64,000 nt of DNA from Oceaniferula marina (lineage in GTDB: Bacteria > Verrucomicrobiota > Verrucomicrobiia > Verrucomicrobiales > Akkermansiaceae), in NCBI RefSeq assembly GCF_013391475.1, contig NZ_JACBAZ010000002.1, positions 612,706 to 676,705 of the forward strand. The letters are read 5' to 3'. The position numbers and the translations under genes are program-made. The notes beneath the pieces were generated by a model that ran no database searches, was not told the origin of the DNA, and was given only the letters and a program-made list of their open reading frames with translations. Shown here one piece after another: positions 52,818 to 59,052 of this stretch. Position 1 is the stretch's first letter; every line of letters begins with the position of its first letter.

Positions 52818-53546
52818 TTACCTGCGTCGGCGAAGAAGCAGGCTGAGTCCTCCGAGCCCAAGTAGGCTGATGGATGAGGGTTCTGGCACGGATTCGATGA
52901 TGATGCCGGCAACGGAACCGCGGAGCGTGCCATTTCTGGTGAAGGTCAGGGCGATACCATCCTGGTCGCCAGTGAATACGTCACTTTCGTAGGTGTGGGC
53001 ACCTTGGCTTCCTAGTGCGACTCCCGCAAATGAGGTGTCACTGGTATTTCCTCCACTCGGCGTGCTTGAGGAGAGCCAACCGCTTTCTCCGGTGACGTCC
53101 CCCGTAGTGACGGTGAGTGGGTTGAAGCCAGTGGCATTATCTGTCGATCGGAGAATAACCATGCGGTAGCTTGTCGCTCCCACAGTCGTCAACCAGTTGC
53201 TGATGCCCGTCAGGTGAATATCGTTTTGAGAGTCGTTTCCATTATCGTCGAGGTATCCGCGGAAGACACTCTGGTCAGATGCTGTGCTACTATTGATGTA
53301 AGTTCCTCCGGCATCGTGGCGGATGTTGATCGTTGCTCCGTCGGCTGCAAAACTTGTGCCATCGCCAGACCAGTCGTTGACACTTTGATAATCCCATGAG
53401 GTGACGGTGCCGATCGCACTGACGTAGCCGTCTGTGTTGGCGGGTTGCCCTTGCCGTTGGGTTCCGAAGTTAATCGCGATTTGGGCGGCCTGTGAAGCGG
53501 CACAGCTCAATGCCATGAACACGGCGATACTTGTGGTTTTCATCAT
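52818..53546 (-). CDS. Secreted protein with PEP-CTERM sorting signal
   Basis: Predicted 242 aa. Signal peptide MMKTTSIAVFMALSCAASQAAQ, a beta-rich body without a known domain (AQIAINFGTQRQGQPANTD, GATINIRHDAGGTYINSSTA, SYRMVILRSTDNATGFNPL, GIALTFTRNGTLRGSVAG) and SVPEPSSISLLGLGGLSLLLRRRR. It starts at the ATG 53546 or 53543; an upstream reading to 53633 is not signal-like. The leader carries the 13-nt motif shared with the gene at 47.5 kb. A 166-bp repeat element lies about 140 bases upstream. Confidence 0.85.
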   Translation of the reverse strand: MMKTTSIAVFMALSCAASQAAQIAINFGTQRQGQPANTDGYVSAIGTVTSWDYQSVNDWSGDGTSFAADGATINIRHDAGGTYINSSTASDQSVFRGYLDDNGNDSQNDIHLTGISNWLTTVGATSYRMVILRSTDNATGFNPLTVTTGDVTGESGWLSSSTPSGGNTSDTSFAGVALGSQGAHTYESDVFTGDQDGIALTFTRNGTLRGSVAGIIIESVPEPSSISLLGLGGLSLLLRRRR

Positions 53547-53551
53547 GATCT

Positions 53552-53564
53552 TGTGTTTGGGGTG
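53552..53564 (-). promoter_or_regulatory. 13-nt leader motif shared by two PEP-CTERM genes (copy 2)
   Basis: TGTGTTTGGGGTG on the plus strand, five bases upstream of the ATG at 53546 (eight upstream of the one at 53543). It is identical to the motif at 48321-48333. Confidence 0.6.
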
Positions 53565-53682
53565 GGTAGGGGCTGCGGATAACAGCCATGATCCGAATAG
53601 CTGGGATTTTAGACAGGGTGTGGGGGATGACAAGTTTAAAAGTGATTGCAGGATGGCAGGGCGAATGCACTAGGGGCTAACA

Positions 53683-54023: not shown

Positions 54024-54695
54024 TTAGCCTTGGCACGAAAGGATGTGGATTTGTTTGTCCCGCACTTTCCATTGGATGTTATATCCATCAATCAGGCATC
54101 CATAGGTTCTTGATGCATCATCTTGGTAGGCGGGGCGGGGGTCGATGGCGATGGTGGCTTCGATAACCGCACGGCTTGTATCACTCAGCCCCTGATCGGC
54201 ATTATTGATCCAATGGACGCTGAGCTTCTCCGGGGCATGTGGAGCAAACCCAGCTGCGGCCTCGGGCAGGGCATCAGCGTAGGGAATGTAGGGTTTGATG
54301 TCGATGATGGGGGTTCCATCCACGAGGTCGACGCCGCGTAGTTTGATCATCGGGCCCTCGGGGTGGGTGGTATCGATACTTTCGAGTCGAACGACCGATA
54401 GCCCGATCGGGTTGGGGCGGAAGGGGGAGCGGGAGGCAAAAACACCAACCCGCTTGTTGCCACCGAGCCGAGGCGGGCGCACAGTCGGTTTCCAGTCTGT
54501 GCGTATCGCTTGATGGAAGAGGAACACCAGCCAGAGGTGGGAAAAATCTTCGAGGCCGCGAAGGGCGTCCGGATCGCGAAATTCCGGGGTGAAGATCAGT
54601 TCGCCCCATGCCTCGTCCACGATGCCCGATTGTCTCGGGACACCGAATTTTTCACCGTAACAGGTGCGGACGTGGGCGATGGCCTCAAGCTTCAT
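54024..54695 (-). CDS. trmO: tRNA (t6A37) methyltransferase TrmO/TsaA
   Basis: Predicted 223 aa. TrmO methylates N6 of t6A37 in tRNA-Thr to m6t6A. Hallmarks: an AIAHVRTCYGEKFGVPRQSG start, GLEDFSHLWLVFLFH, GVFASRSPFRPNPIGLSVVRL and LRGVDLVDGTPIIDIKPYIPYAD. The fold is a beta-barrel that binds SAM at the SRSPFRPN loop. It is the last gene of the zinc-uptake operon, 25 bases after the outer-membrane gene, an unusual place for a tRNA enzyme. Confidence 0.92.
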   Translation of the reverse strand: MKLEAIAHVRTCYGEKFGVPRQSGIVDEAWGELIFTPEFRDPDALRGLEDFSHLWLVFLFHQAIRTDWKPTVRPPRLGGNKRVGVFASRSPFRPNPIGLSVVRLESIDTTHPEGPMIKLRGVDLVDGTPIIDIKPYIPYADALPEAAAGFAPHAPEKLSVHWINNADQGLSDTSRAVIEATIAIDPRPAYQDDASRTYGCLIDGYNIQWKVRDKQIHILSCQG

Positions 54696-54720
54696 TTTTT
54701 ATCGGTGGGTTCGATGGCTC

Positions 54721-55929
54721 TTAGTGCACATGATTATCACCAGGTCCCCACTCAAAGCCGAACTGGAGCCAGATGCTGTGGTCGCTATGACGCTCTTCAC
54801 TGTAGTCATAGTTATACTGGAGCCGTGCAAGGACGTCAATGGGGCCAGCTTCGAAGTGTCGGGTGAGGGATGGAGAAATCCGGTGGCGTTCGACCAGTTC
54901 GGGGTCTTCAACCCCTTCCAGATAATCGTAGCGAAGGCCAATGTCCCAGTCGCTGTTAGGGCTGTAGATGGCACTTGAGTTAAAGCCAAACTCATCGAAG
55001 TCTCCTTCATCGGTTTCGACATCGCGCCACATCAATTCATTGCGCCAGACAAGGCGTTCCCCGTCGACTTCGTCTTTGATCCATGAATAAGTGATGTCCG
55101 CTCCATAGACGCGGGTCCATCGGTCAAAATCATTTTTCCCTTGAGCGTAGCTGGTGCCGTAGAGAAAATGACGGCTGTCAGCGGGCCAGAAGGAAGCTTC
55201 GTAGCGGGCGGTGAAAACGGCATCGTTCCAGAGCGCCATCTCGGCTTCTTCACTGTGCCCCCCGTGATCGTCATCATGATCATCATCATGATCATCATCG
55301 TGGTCATCATCATGCTCGTTATCGTGGGCGTGATCATGTTCGAGCGCTTTACCGTAGGAAAAGATCAGTCGGTTGTTCCATGATGTGGGTAGCACCCATT
55401 CGAGCTCAGCTCCTTCGGAGATCAGTCCATCATCACCGAGGAATCGAATGTTGGAAAGGTTGGCATCGGCAAAATCCCAGGCGTGGCTATGCAGGCCGTT
55501 CTGGGTGCCGTAGGCAGCGAGAAAGCGTCCGGCTTTGATGTCGATGTCACCGGGCAGGTTGAGTGCCTGGGCGTAGATCTCCTCGAGTTCGGCGTCCCAT
55601 CCGTCTTCATTGTTCCAGGTGATAATACCTTCGGCGTATCCGGCGATATGTTCGTTGTATCGTAGGTCGAGTCCGATGGAGAGTCCGGGGATGCTGAACC
55701 CTGAATGAATCGGGTCGTGGGCTCCTTGCTCCAGCCCACCTCCTTCGATACCTGAGTATCCCATGGTTGTGTTGAGAAAGAGGAAGGGGTCCAGACTCAG
55801 TCCGGATGGCTTGTGATCATGGGCACAGCCACTTTGGTGGCAATCCAGAGTGTTGTGAGCGTCGTCGGTTTCGGCGGATAGTGTGGTGGCGCTGAGCGTT
55901 GTGCAGATGAAGTAAGGAATGTGTTTCAT
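54721..55929 (-). CDS. Outer-membrane beta-barrel protein with Asp/His repeat, zinc-associated
   Basis: Predicted 402 aa. Signal peptide (1-19), then a Cys/His-rich patch (CHQSGCAHDHKPSG) and a barrel of alternating strands (NTTMGYSGIEGG, IAGYAEGIITWN, RLIFSYGKALEHD, DWDIGLRYDYLEGVED, IDVLARLQYNYDYS, SIWLQFGFEWGPGDN). Residues 198-225 contain four DDDH-type units, an exposed loop able to bind zinc. It follows znuB by 22 bases. Similar His-rich barrels next to znuABC have been taken as zinc porins; direct function here is inferred. It ends in HVH, not the usual Phe. Confidence 0.82.
   Translation of the reverse strand: MKHIPYFICTTLSATTLSAETDDAHNTLDCHQSGCAHDHKPSGLSLDPFLFLNTTMGYSGIEGGGLEQGAHDPIHSGFSIPGLSIGLDLRYNEHIAGYAEGIITWNNEDGWDAELEEIYAQALNLPGDIDIKAGRFLAAYGTQNGLHSHAWDFADANLSNIRFLGDDGLISEGAELEWVLPTSWNNRLIFSYGKALEHDHAHDNEHDDDHDDDHDDDHDDDHGGHSEEAEMALWNDAVFTARYEASFWPADSRHFLYGTSYAQGKNDFDRWTRVYGADITYSWIKDEVDGERLVWRNELMWRDVETDEGDFDEFGFNSSAIYSPNSDWDIGLRYDYLEGVEDPELVERHRISPSLTRHFEAGPIDVLARLQYNYDYSEERHSDHSIWLQFGFEWGPGDNHVH
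55269..55316 (-). repeat. 12-bp tandem repeat coding for (DDDH)n
   Basis: Four 12-bp units of the type CATCATCATGAT, with a few substitutions, inside the outer-membrane protein gene. Each unit codes for Asp-Asp-Asp-His or close variants. The number of units may vary by slippage. Confidence 0.9.
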
Positions 55930-55951
55930 GGTATGAAATAAAGGTGGGTTA

Positions 55952-56827
55952 TTACGATTGATGGTGTCGAGTGGGGCGGAGGGAAATAGCTTTCCTGCGT
56001 CGGAGTCCGTAGCGAGGGCTGAAGATGCAGGCGAGAATGAAGATGCAACCTAACACGATGACGATGCTAGGGCCGGTTGGGGTTTCCGCTGCTGCGGATA
56101 GAAGGATGGCGATGACGGATCCGAGACTGCCGATGATGCCGCCTCCCCAGAAGAGCCAGGAGGTTTTGTTCGTGAACAGGGAGACGATGGCAGCCGGGGC
56201 TACCAGGAGTCCGATGGACAAGACACTGCCCAGAGCTTGGAAGCTGGCGACCAAGGCTAAAATCAGCAGGCCGAAGAGTAGGTATTGCATGGATCTAACC
56301 TTCACCCCTTGGGCTGCGGCGACGTGGGGCTCAAACAAGGTGATCAAGAGCGGGCGCATAAAGAGAGTGGAGAGTGTCAGGGTCACGGTGGCAATGATCA
56401 GAAAAGTCCAGAGGTCGCTATTGCTGACCGCCAGAATGTTGCCAAATAGCCAGTTTTCCAGTTCTGCCGCGGTTCCTGTGTGGCGTTGGATAATGATGCC
56501 GGCAGCAAAGGCGGTGGTAAAAAAAATGGCGAGGGCTGTGCCTTGGGGGATACGGCTACCTCGGGCAACCGCAACAGACCCCAGACCAACAATGAGGGCA
56601 GCGAACAAAGCTCCAACAAAAGCCCCTAACTGGCTCAATACCCCGGTGATCAGCACAACCGTCGCAATCCCCGGAAGCATGGTGTGTGAGAGCGCTCCGA
56701 TGGATAGGGCGCTGCGTTGGAGTAGAACAAAGCCGCTGAAAAATCCATTGGTAAAACCGATCACCGCAGCTGCCAGCAAAGCGCGCTGGAAGAAGAGGGT
56801 GTCGAGAGTTTGGAAAAAATCGGTCAC
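55952..56827 (-). CDS. znuB: Zinc/manganese ABC transporter permease
   Basis: Predicted 291 aa from a GTG at 56827; about eight or nine membrane segments. FFSGFVLLQRSALSIGALSHTMLPGI, QGTALAIFFTTAFAAGIII and QALGSVLSIGLLVAPAAIVSL are typical of the ABC-3 (ZnuB/MntB) family. It forms the channel for ions brought by ZnuA. A TTG at 56866 would overlap the znuC stop by 17 bases; the GTG lies 22 bases after that stop. The gene order in the operon leaves no doubt about the role. Confidence 0.92.
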   Translation of the reverse strand: MTDFFQTLDTLFFQRALLAAAVIGFTNGFFSGFVLLQRSALSIGALSHTMLPGIATVVLITGVLSQLGAFVGALFAALIVGLGSVAVARGSRIPQGTALAIFFTTAFAAGIIIQRHTGTAAELENWLFGNILAVSNSDLWTFLIIATVTLTLSTLFMRPLLITLFEPHVAAAQGVKVRSMQYLLFGLLILALVASFQALGSVLSIGLLVAPAAIVSLFTNKTSWLFWGGGIIGSLGSVIAILLSAAAETPTGPSIVIVLGCIFILACIFSPRYGLRRRKAISLRPTRHHQS

Positions 56828-56849
56828 AGATATCGGGTTGAGTCGTTGA

Positions 56850-57608
56850 TTAGTTGGTGAAGGCAAGGTTCAGATTGGCTTCACTCAGCGTGGTGGCTGT
56901 CGGGCCGTAAGCGATGACCTCTTGGTTGATCAGTAGCGTGTGATCAAAAATGTCAGCTGCGGTGTTGAGGTCATGATGCGAGGCAATAACCAGGCGACCT
57001 TCATGGGTGATGTTGCGCAGTAAGTCTGAGAGTTGGGCCGAGTGGTCCCGATCAAGTCCGGTGAATGGCTCGTCGAGAAGCAGCACATGAGCTTCCTGGG
57101 CGATGGAGCGTGCGAGGAAGGCTCGTTGTTGTTGGCCGCCGGAAAGCTCTCTGATTTGGCGATCCTGCAAGGGTTCCAGTCGCATCAGAGCGAGGGCTCG
57201 TTCGACGACCTCGTCATCGTGAGCGCTGTAACGTTTCCATGGTCCAAGGTGAGGATAGCGGCCCATTTCCACCATGCCGCGCACAGTGATGGGGAAATCC
57301 CAGTTGACCTCTTCGCTTTGGGGGAGGTAGGCAAACTCGCGGCTCCAGCGTTGGATGGGTTCATTACGCCAGAGGATCGAGCCCTTGTCTTTGCGTTGCA
57401 GTCCGGCAATGGCTTTGAGCAAGGTGCTTTTTCCTGCTCCGTTTGGCCCGACCAAGGCCACGCTGTTGCCGCAGGATGTGGCGAGTTCGATTTCTCGCAG
57501 TGCCGGGGTTTTGTGATAGCTGACACAGAGCCCCTCAATCACCAGTTCGTGGTGGTGATGGTGCTGGTGAGGACAGTCGCCCTTGGTGCTGTGTTGGCAA
57601 TCGCTCAT
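56850..57608 (-). CDS. znuC: Zinc ABC transporter ATP-binding protein
   Basis: Predicted 252 aa. Walker A GPNGAGKS at 54-61, signature LSGGQQQR, Walker B VLLLDEP and ASHHD as the switch His loop. Residues 1-20 form a Cys/His-rich tail (CQHSTKGDCPHQHHHHH) not needed for ATP binding; it may sense or hold zinc in the cytoplasm. It supplies energy for ZnuB. The gene follows the 147-aa membrane protein by 30 bases. Confidence 0.94.
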   Translation of the reverse strand: MSDCQHSTKGDCPHQHHHHHELVIEGLCVSYHKTPALREIELATSCGNSVALVGPNGAGKSTLLKAIAGLQRKDKGSILWRNEPIQRWSREFAYLPQSEEVNWDFPITVRGMVEMGRYPHLGPWKRYSAHDDEVVERALALMRLEPLQDRQIRELSGGQQQRAFLARSIAQEAHVLLLDEPFTGLDRDHSAQLSDLLRNITHEGRLVIASHHDLNTAADIFDHTLLINQEVIAYGPTATTLSEANLNLAFTN

Positions 57609-57638
57609 GGTGTCGGAATCAGTGAGGCTTCGTGGATG

Positions 57639-58082
57639 TTATCGGGTGTCGATTTCGAAGGTGTCGGCAAAGTCGGCAAACTGGTCAGTGAAGTGAATCT
57701 TCTGTTCCTCCTTGCCGGCTTGAGTGAGGGTAATCTGGGTAAAATACTTGTTGTTTTCACTCGCCTCGAGCCATTGGATGTCGATGAGGAATTCCGTGCT
57801 TTGTTTGGCTGGGAGTGTGAGGCTCAGATCGATTTCATTGCTGGCTGGCTGGCAATCGAGTAATGGCTTGTCTTGATCGGCACGCTGGATGCGGATGTGT
57901 GTCGGTCTGTGGGAAAAGAGGATTTTGGCCTCAACCGATGTGTGATGGCTTGGGTTTGGTGATGCGTGTTTACTGGTGGGAATGCTTGTTTCTTCTTTGT
58001 GGGTAAGCAGGGTGATTCCCAGTCCCATCAAACCGAGCAGGATGAGGACGCAGATGAAATCGATGAGAGGAGCCCGGCGCAT
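57639..58082 (-). CDS. Unknown membrane-anchored protein in the zinc operon
   Basis: Predicted 147 aa. One N-terminal membrane segment (IDFICVLILLGLMGLGITLLT, about 8-28), then a Ser/His/Pro-rich linker (about 36-50) and a beta-rich domain (VEAKILFSHRPTHIRIQRAD, NEIDLSLTLPAKQSTEFLIDIQW, NKYFTQITLTQAGKEEQKIHF). I recognise no family. It lies between znuA (25 bases) and znuC (30 bases), same strand, so it is surely cotranscribed. Position suggests an accessory to zinc delivery or a link across the periplasm to the outer-membrane barrel. Confidence 0.8.
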   Translation of the reverse strand: MRRAPLIDFICVLILLGLMGLGITLLTHKEETSIPTSKHASPNPSHHTSVEAKILFSHRPTHIRIQRADQDKPLLDCQPASNEIDLSLTLPAKQSTEFLIDIQWLEASENNKYFTQITLTQAGKEEQKIHFTDQFADFADTFEIDTR

Positions 58083-58107
58083 AAGAGATGGTGGGTGGGG
58101 GCCGTGT

Positions 58108-59004
58108 TTATTCCACGAGGGCCTTGGTGATGGTGTTGACGTTGTGCCGCATCATTTTGGTATAGGACTCGCTTCCATCGGCGATCAGGGTTCCTCCGAT
58201 GCGGATGCCGGTTTCCTTGCTGAGAGTCTTCAAGGCCTTGGGATTTGATCGCTGTTCGGGAAAAACCGCAGGGATGTTTTTTGTCCGGATGGTGTTGATG
58301 ATTTCCGCGAGTTCCTTGGCCGTGGGAGCGCTGCTTTTATTGATGCCTTGCACAGCAAGTGACTGCATACCGTATTCATCACAGAAATAGCCAAAAGAAT
58401 CGTGGGCGGTTGCCAGCTTCCGTTTCTCTTTGGGGATCCGGATCAGCTCGCGCCGGATCCATGAGTGGAGCTGGGCCAGCTCTTTACGGTAAGCTTTGGC
58501 GTTGGCTTGAAAATCCTGCGCGTGCGCCGGGTCCAATTTGCTCAATGTCCGTGCCAGATGATCGGCAGCCCGTTGCATGTTGGATACCCGGTGCCACCAG
58601 TGTGGATCGGTCGGGCCATGGTTGCAATGCTCGCCATGCTCATGGTCGTGCTGGTGGGCGTCACCGCTGTTGGTTCTTGCCGGGAGCGTATTGCCAACTT
58701 CGAGAATCGTTGCCGAGTTGCCGAGGGTGTCCCGTAGCTTGTCGAGATAGGTTTCCAGTCCCATACCACTTGCCAGATACAGGGAAGCTCCCCGGGCCTG
58801 ATTCAGCATCGTCGGGCTGGGAGTGAAGTGATGCGGGTCGTCACCGGCACGCATCAGTGAGACCACTTCCACGTGCTCTCCCCCGACCTGTTTCGCCAAA
58901 TCCGCCATCAGCGGGTGTAAGGCTACCACCTTGGTCTGCGCAGATGCTGTAGCCAGACAGAGAAAACTGAAGAGCGTGACGAGTCGATGATGTCGTTGCT
59001 GCAT
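58108..59004 (-). CDS. znuA: Zinc ABC transporter substrate-binding protein
   Basis: Predicted 298 aa. Signal peptide (1-22), then a cluster A-I binding fold. Zinc ligands: His in VVALHPLMADLAKQVGG, His in GDDPHHFTPSP, and His in LATAHDSFGYFCDEYG, plus a His-rich loop (DAHQHDHEHGEHCNHGPTDPHWWHR, about 117-141) typical of zinc rather than manganese carriers. It captures periplasmic zinc and hands it to ZnuB. It is the first gene of the six-gene operon; a palindrome upstream is a candidate operator. Confidence 0.94.
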   Translation of the reverse strand: MQQRHHRLVTLFSFLCLATASAQTKVVALHPLMADLAKQVGGEHVEVVSLMRAGDDPHHFTPSPTMLNQARGASLYLASGMGLETYLDKLRDTLGNSATILEVGNTLPARTNSGDAHQHDHEHGEHCNHGPTDPHWWHRVSNMQRAADHLARTLSKLDPAHAQDFQANAKAYRKELAQLHSWIRRELIRIPKEKRKLATAHDSFGYFCDEYGMQSLAVQGINKSSAPTAKELAEIINTIRTKNIPAVFPEQRSNPKALKTLSKETGIRIGGTLIADGSESYTKMMRHNVNTITKALVE

Positions 59005-59016
59005 GAACAGCTTCTT

Positions 59017-59052
59017 AACGCAAGAAAGTAGCTAATGCAAGTAATTTGCGTT
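59017..59052 (-). promoter_or_regulatory. Candidate zinc-responsive operator upstream of znuA
   Basis: AATGCAA-GTAAT-TTGCGTT (59034-59052) is a 19-bp inverted repeat with one mismatch. A third half-site, AACGCAA, lies at 59017-59023. All are in the 58 bases between znuA and the gene before it, where the promoter must be. A Fur-family (Zur) repressor is the likely binder, but the sequence differs from the well-known Zur boxes, so this is inference. Confidence 0.5.

Follow-up and report, generated by a model that had tools for sequence, protein, structure and literature searches.

A putative zinc-import operon of Oceaniferula marina that combines a ZnuABC-type transporter with a porin-like barrel and an unnamed membrane-anchored protein

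Organization of the operon

The genome of Oceaniferula marina (NCBI RefSeq assembly GCF_013391475.1) was analysed over a stretch of 64,000 nucleotides of contig NZ_JACBAZ010000002.1 (positions 612,706 to 676,705, forward strand), called the window below; coordinates without a contig label refer to it. Six genes on its minus strand constitute a real, conserved cluster, a putative zinc-import operon that includes two unnamed families, a protein of 147 amino acids (U147) and an outer-membrane barrel. On the basis of sequence and genomic context, we interpret the system as a Zur-controlled trans-envelope zinc importer, in which a dedicated porin would be combined with ZnuABC and with U147 as its anchored accessory subunit; we give this interpretation a probability of roughly 0.73. 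The features of the locus are listed here (labels beginning with L, G, C, g and f are ours, for loci, genomes, contigs, genera and families).

59034..59052, plus strand: candidate Zur operator AATGCAAGTAATTTGCGTT, palindrome AAYGCAA-N5-TTGCRTT with 0 mismatches, 29 bp upstream of the znuA start
58108..59004, minus strand: znuA, zinc/manganese-type ATP-binding cassette (ABC) substrate-binding protein with a His-rich loop (PF01297, E 7e-77)
57639..58082, minus strand: U147, predicted single-span membrane-anchored beta-sandwich protein of an unnamed family (AlphaFold2 (AF2) model and synteny; no Pfam or NCBIfam match)
56850..57608, minus strand: znuC, ABC ATPase with a His-rich N-terminus (PF00005 ABC_tran, E 2e-30)
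55952..56866, minus strand: znuB, ABC-3 permease (PF00950, E 3e-47), start TTG 56866 or GTG 56827
54721..55929, minus strand: outer-membrane 16-stranded porin-like barrel, predicted from AF2 and VIA-align, with a His/Asp-rich loop at about 196–233
54024..54695, minus strand: trmO, tRNA t6A37 methyltransferase, probable passenger (TrmO_N, E 1e-46; TIGR00104, 162 bits against a cut-off of 93)

All six open reading frames (ORFs) are found in the order and on the strand given by the original prediction. The gaps, in order from znuA, are 25, 30, 22, 22 and 25 bp, within the predicted 22–30 bp, if znuB starts at the GTG; with the TTG start, the third gap becomes a 17-bp overlap with znuC. The His clusters noted earlier in ZnuA, ZnuC and the barrel are visible in the translations, at the N-terminus in the case of ZnuC, and another is present in the U147 linker. 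The substrate-binding protein, the ATPase and the ABC-3 permease all give Pfam matches above cut-off, as in ZnuABC-type importers, and a sequence search of the PDB with ZnuA retrieved 52 distinct sequences at E ≤ 0.001 (best, 8svc). Among the six proteins, only TrmO passes an NCBIfam cut-off. Scans for sigma-70 promoters and terminators gave signals not clearly above those of shuffled controls. The arrangement recurs across Verrucomicrobiota, and for this reason we consider it more than a chance association. The same genome has three ABC-3 matches in all, including a further permease at G000:C4:754782-755555.

Conservation of U147 upstream of znuC

The distribution of U147 was studied in 117 genomes of the family and in 288 genomes of the phylum. 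A search with the single sequence gave a match in 15 of the 117 family genomes, one of which (L086, genome G016) was dropped as spurious, as it lies in a 781-amino-acid ORF without znu genes. In a first survey, an ORF of similar size was present directly upstream of znuC in all 22 loci with a strong znuC, including seven not flagged by the single-sequence search. A profile of 20 sequences matched 36 of the 288 phylum genomes, and U147 is directly upstream of znuC in 33/33 neighbourhoods examined from these matches, the other three being L054, L055 and the window itself. Of the 79 barrel loci described below, 42 contain U147, always directly upstream of znuC, and none has a strong znuC without it. 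With a profile of 42 sequences, the family was detected in 52 of the 288 genomes, belonging to 10 families, and the U147–znuC order was kept in 22/22 further loci; about 10 of the 52 genomes (for example G312, the weakest match) are outside these synteny counts. The sets overlap, and the later profiles include some of the sequences that they recover. Synteny with znu genes, chosen beforehand as one of the points on which the original prediction should stand or fall, is thus conserved: all loci checked have U147 immediately before znuC. It is also present in the Akkermansia-like genus g3.

In some genomes of genera g7 and g13 and in family f2 (L117–L122 and L124–L126), U147, znuC and znuB occur together without a neighbouring znuA. 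In g7 and g13 genomes, znuA is found elsewhere behind its own operator (L264, L265, L267, L269 and L270). As the U147–znuC–znuB group persists without an adjacent znuA, U147 appears to be the partner of znuCB rather than of znuA.

Predicted structure of U147

Neither Pfam nor NCBIfam contains a model that matches the window U147 at E ≤ 1, and among 20 members the best Pfam E-value is 0.04. With the sequences of U147 and of the barrel as queries, Pfam, NCBIfam and the PDB yielded nothing usable. The AF2 model, based on 42 sequences (predicted local distance difference test, pLDDT, 88.8), has a helix at 5–27 and eight strands within 47–145, in agreement with the single membrane helix and beta domain first proposed. 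The top Foldseek match is MmpS5 (E 2.9e-3), with none at E ≤ 0.001. The alignment with MmpS5 covers 95 residues with a root-mean-square deviation (rmsd) of 3.5 and Z 6.9, and values below 8 may mean only a common arrangement; DUF4425 proteins, SoxZ and other beta-sandwiches rank lower.

The outer-membrane barrel

Barrel homologues are present in 64 of the 117 family genomes. A contig scan gave 100 confirmed stretches, the best 80 of which correspond to 79 loci; all are labelled Verrucomicrobiota, save one Lentisphaerae, one Kiritimatiellae and one plain 'Bacterium'. The barrel adjoins znuB in 19 loci and znuA in 33, on the same strand (52/79). In L222, it is accompanied by a divergent pair on the other strand. 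A tandem pair of barrel genes follows znuB in four loci of the window's genus (L067, L068, L069 and L075).

The AF2 model of the barrel (49 sequences; pLDDT 83.4, predicted template modelling score 0.82) has 16 strands, counted from its listed elements. VIA-align places OprP (Z 27.3) and OprO (Z 27.2) on top and OmpF-type porins at about 24; the alignment with OprP, over 294 residues with an rmsd of 4.0, indicates a 16-stranded porin fold, which is common to many porins. The order differs in Foldseek, where Campylobacter MOMP is first (3.9e-9) and OprP is at rank 14. Eight residues are identical in 49/49 members: H71, D72, P73, E116, E117, H147, H149 and D251. His makes up 21% of loop 196–233 and Asp/Glu 44%, compared with a His content of 3.8% in the rest of the protein; the loop contains at least three His in 40 of the 49 members. 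Read from the order of the strands rather than from coordinates, H147 and H149 would lie in an L3-like constriction and the His/Asp loop would face outwards in the model.

Several sequence assignments were considered and set aside. In Pfam, the window barrel gives solely a sub-threshold match to DUF2490 (E 0.0054), a family matched weakly in three of 18 members (best 0.0023). ZrgA is matched in 3/18 (best 0.13), probably through the His-rich loop, and BBP2 in one of the 18 (6.5e-5, the best Pfam match of this set). A TonB-dependent receptor was also rejected: no Plug or TonB-receptor match was found in the 18 members, and 16 strands are modelled. No Porin_O_P match was found in them either.

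A candidate Zur operator and its neighbours

Ahead of znuA, the window's genus and Persicirhabdus share a conserved palindrome, AAYGCAA-N5-TTGCRTT. Near the window operator, there is a third half-site, TTGCGTT, at 59017-59023 on the minus strand. In the family sample, exact operators number 85 in 54 of the 117 genomes, and the reversed-pattern control gave 0. A second exact site of the window genome (C1:911603) is inside an ORF and was taken as chance.

In each barrel locus, the 220 bp preceding the first gene were scanned for the best match. The operator was found with at most two mismatches in 50/79 loci and with at most three in 62/79; the corresponding background in 5,153 windows, true sites included, is 1.3% and 3.1%. 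The motif itself was derived from loci that are among these 79 (L150–L157 and L180). At two mismatches or fewer, it is present in 18 of the 31 loci in which the barrel precedes znuA, 14 of the 18 in which znuA comes first and the barrel later, and 18 of the remaining 30, a class that includes three znu operons ended by contig edges (L152, L154 and L168). If these three are removed, lone barrels (L222 included) carry the operator in 18/27 cases at this level and in 25/27 with up to three mismatches; in L227, an exact operator is situated just before the barrel.

Flanking genes were inspected at 61 of the 85 exact sites, in 60 loci (a first 30 taken as listed and a second 30 chosen because they lie away from the known znu and barrel places). 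The first 30 loci have znuA in 11, U147 in two, a MerC-like gene in eight, and one each of COG0523, hisI, a His-rich lipoprotein and a GLKGTSCYR protein, with five unassigned. The second 30 have znuA in nine, U147 in two, MerC-like in four, COG0523 in three, GLKGTSCYR in four, FeoB-like in two, and a TonB receptor and a His-rich barrel-like protein in one each, with four unassigned. The labels of one MerC-like protein, three COG0523 proteins, hisI, the TonB receptor and one FeoB-like protein were borne out by family searches; the others were given by eye from shared motifs. One of the confirmed COG0523 GTPases is ZigA-like (1.5e-48, below the cut-off of that model), and the operator-adjacent hisI scores above its NCBIfam cut-off. 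Within the family, the same exact operator thus stands beside znuA, COG0523, hisI and U147–znuC; paralogues of COG0523 and HisI are among the reported members of Zur regulons (PMC2770081, PMC6103462).

Three further groups occur at these sites. A GLKGTSCYR-like family of about 200 amino acids, a candidate new member of the zinc regulon by its position, is behind the exact operator in L281, L298, L304, L305, L321 and L323; one member searched had no Pfam match, and in L298 the gene is divergent from a COG0523 gene. Inner-membrane proteins of MerC-like type, of which Pfam confirmed one, follow the operator in several genera (L272, L275, L277, L278, L282, L285, L286, L292, L310, L313, L318 and L319), a location that suggests a role in zinc for a family that takes its name from mercury. 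GTPase permeases resembling FeoB, of which Pfam again confirmed one, are beside the exact operator in L294, L306 and L282 and are possibly a zinc-linked relative of FeoB.

There are three Fur-family genes in the genome. Our candidate for Zur is the paralogue located some 12.7 kb ahead of the window (G000:C2:599657-600013). It has five relatives among about 260 loci searched (E ≤ 3.3e-30, 37–43% identity), and in three of these loci (L171, L184 and L195) the orthologue comes directly after znuB. In L187, another Fur-type gene is divergent to the barrel and nearer to a different Fur paralogue.

Position of trmO

In the window and in nine of the 10 other loci of the same genus with room beyond the barrel (L067–L074 and L078, but not L079), trmO follows the barrel, at distances of about 20–315 bp. 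This order was found in no other genus among the loci surveyed, and a link between zinc and tRNA modification, one of the two possibilities first offered, consequently has no wider support and was set aside. The other, that of a chance passenger, is the probable one. Downstream of trmO, at 52818-53633, lies a gene for a secreted protein with what looks by eye like a PEP-CTERM-like sorting signal at its end.

Interpretation

In the mechanism that we propose, the Fur-family repressor (candidate C2:599657-600013) would leave the operator upstream of znuA when zinc is low, and the six genes would then be transcribed together. Zinc would enter by way of the 16-stranded porin, in which the loop rich in His and Asp, together with the invariant HDP, EE and HxH residues, may attract the metal and let it pass. 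ZnuA would capture it in the periplasm and ZnuBC would pump it inwards. U147, fixed in the inner membrane by a single helix, would assist ZnuABC as an accessory subunit, most likely by docking or tethering ZnuA/ZnuB and not by carrying zinc. Of the earlier proposal, the idea of a zinc-import path across the envelope that includes an outer-membrane channel is supported by the synteny, the operator common to zinc-regulon gene types and the Fur-family gene inside three related operons; the transfer of zinc by U147 is not supported.

If such a transfer involved the His-rich linker, U147 would be a zinc chaperone like ZinT or AztD, loading ZnuA by means of His residues. The linker of the window protein is indeed rich in His, that of L157 is far longer, and relatives of the same order (L124–L126) also have His clusters there. 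However, three or more linker His are found in only two of 42 aligned members, the window protein being one of the two, H58 is His in 21/42, and an invariant His is present at none of the tabulated positions of the beta domain. The ZinT model is not matched among 20 members, and the ZinT-like reading was rejected. We consider a chaperone quite unlikely. Given this pattern of conservation, U147 would be better explained by a part in docking or assembly than by the carrying of zinc. If it is a subunit that serves the docking, assembly or gating of the ZnuBC channel, much as MmpS accompanies MmpL, this would explain why the place before znuC is fixed even where znuA is not adjacent. The anchored beta-sandwich with MmpS5 as its top Foldseek match is consistent with this, as is the residue P5, identical in 42/42 members. 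On the other side, the fold similarity is below the thresholds given above and no MmpS Pfam match was obtained, so that this particular function has, in our estimate, slightly less than an even chance. A more far-reaching proposal would make U147 the obligatory fourth subunit of a distinct ZnuABC branch, spread over several Verrucomicrobiota classes, the Akkermansia-like genus included, and, where the His-rich porin is present, part of a continuous non-TonB conduit for zinc from surface to cytoplasm (porin, ZnuA, U147–ZnuBC) under Zur with its own operator; we regard it as rather unlikely.

The barrel could also be a general cation-attracting porin without zinc selectivity, put into zinc operons by related bacteria, in which case the operon would merely raise the permeability of the outer membrane when zinc is scarce. 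The porin fold without a plug match is compatible with this, and the nearest solved structures include both specific and general porins. The invariant HDP, EE and HxH residues and the His content of the loop argue otherwise, as does the operator of lone barrels, and we judge a general porin somewhat unlikely. The metal is a separate question. In NCBIfam, ZnuA, ZnuB and ZnuC score best against a mixture of zinc (Azt) and manganese/iron models, in every case below cut-off, and elsewhere the operator precedes a FeoB-like gene and a siderophore-type TonB receptor; manganese or iron would be compatible with the sequence. Against these metals are the zinc-type regulon mates (COG0523/ZigA-like and hisI), the His-rich loop of ZnuA and the existence of at least one other ABC-3 permease in the genome, on contig C4. 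The genomic context favours zinc, and transport of manganese or iron instead appears very improbable.

Several other observations weigh against a Zur-controlled trans-envelope zinc importer. An ABC-3 permease is found in 240 of the 288 phylum genomes, compared with 52 with a detectable U147, and most such importers therefore lack a recognizable U147. The Akkermansia-like genus g3 has a barrel match in 0/13 genomes and an exact operator in 0/13. There are 26 barrel loci among the 79 without any znu gene, some of them ended by contig edges, and in L197, L209 and L222 related barrels are located beside more distant metal ABC systems, so that metal specificity may vary. The phylum sample shows no enrichment of the exact operator, with 33 sites in 25/288 genomes against 63 matches of the reversed control in nine; four of the six genomes of family f2 carry sites. 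Our claim for the exact operator is for this reason confined to the family and to the regions upstream of the first gene in barrel loci. Concerning the candidate Zur, its orthologues in L227 and L062 are about 1.2 kb from a lone barrel, divergent and not adjacent to it, and an exact operator is lacking in the three loci with the gene after znuB, where the best match has two mismatches in L184 and four in L171 and L195.

Many Verrucomicrobiota, it appears, rely on a dedicated porin encoded together with the inner-membrane importer, and on a subunit of that importer that has not been described before. Given the operator and the candidate Zur, a zinc regulon of this group can be tested directly.

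Comparison with known systems

Little is known about the passage of zinc across the outer membrane, according to an excerpt of PMC4176598. In the titles and abstract openings of papers on zinc porins, on Zur with porins and on zinc uptake, znuA or Zur in Verrucomicrobia and Akkermansia, there is no description of this system, and the candidate Zur operator is absent from the same parts of the papers searched. ZepA (PMC10957091, in excerpt) was rejected as a counterpart, being a different, secreted protein.

An outer-membrane component is found in other zinc regulons. Among the Zur-regulated outer-membrane proteins covered by the review PMC6103462, many are TonB-dependent receptors, a class that includes ZnuD; porin precedents are OprD (named in the same review) and MspD of Mycobacterium smegmatis (PMC13098993). 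The barrel described here differs from these in having no Plug or TonB match, no match to a known porin above cut-off, and a place in one operon with znu. With the phosphate-specific porins OprP and OprO, it shares the 16-stranded architecture (294 and 293 aligned residues); the identity is 13%, and the barrel differs in the absence of a Porin_O_P match, in its His/Asp-rich loop and in its zinc-operon context.

AztD is a periplasmic zinc accessory protein. Like AztD, ZinT and ZrgA, U147 is encoded by an accessory gene of a zinc ABC importer, but it is predicted to be membrane-anchored, matches neither ZinT nor ZrgA and has no conserved His cluster. In its predicted N-terminal helix and periplasmic beta-sandwich, it may resemble the MmpS accessory proteins of MmpL; its partner, in contrast, is an ABC importer, no MmpS sequence match was found in 20 members, and the structural Z is only 6.9. 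The importer itself has the constituents of ZnuABC and AztABC, namely a PF01297 substrate-binding protein with a His-rich loop, a PF00005 ATPase and a PF00950 permease, and is distinguished from them by the additional gene for an anchored beta-sandwich protein before znuC and by the porin in the same operon.

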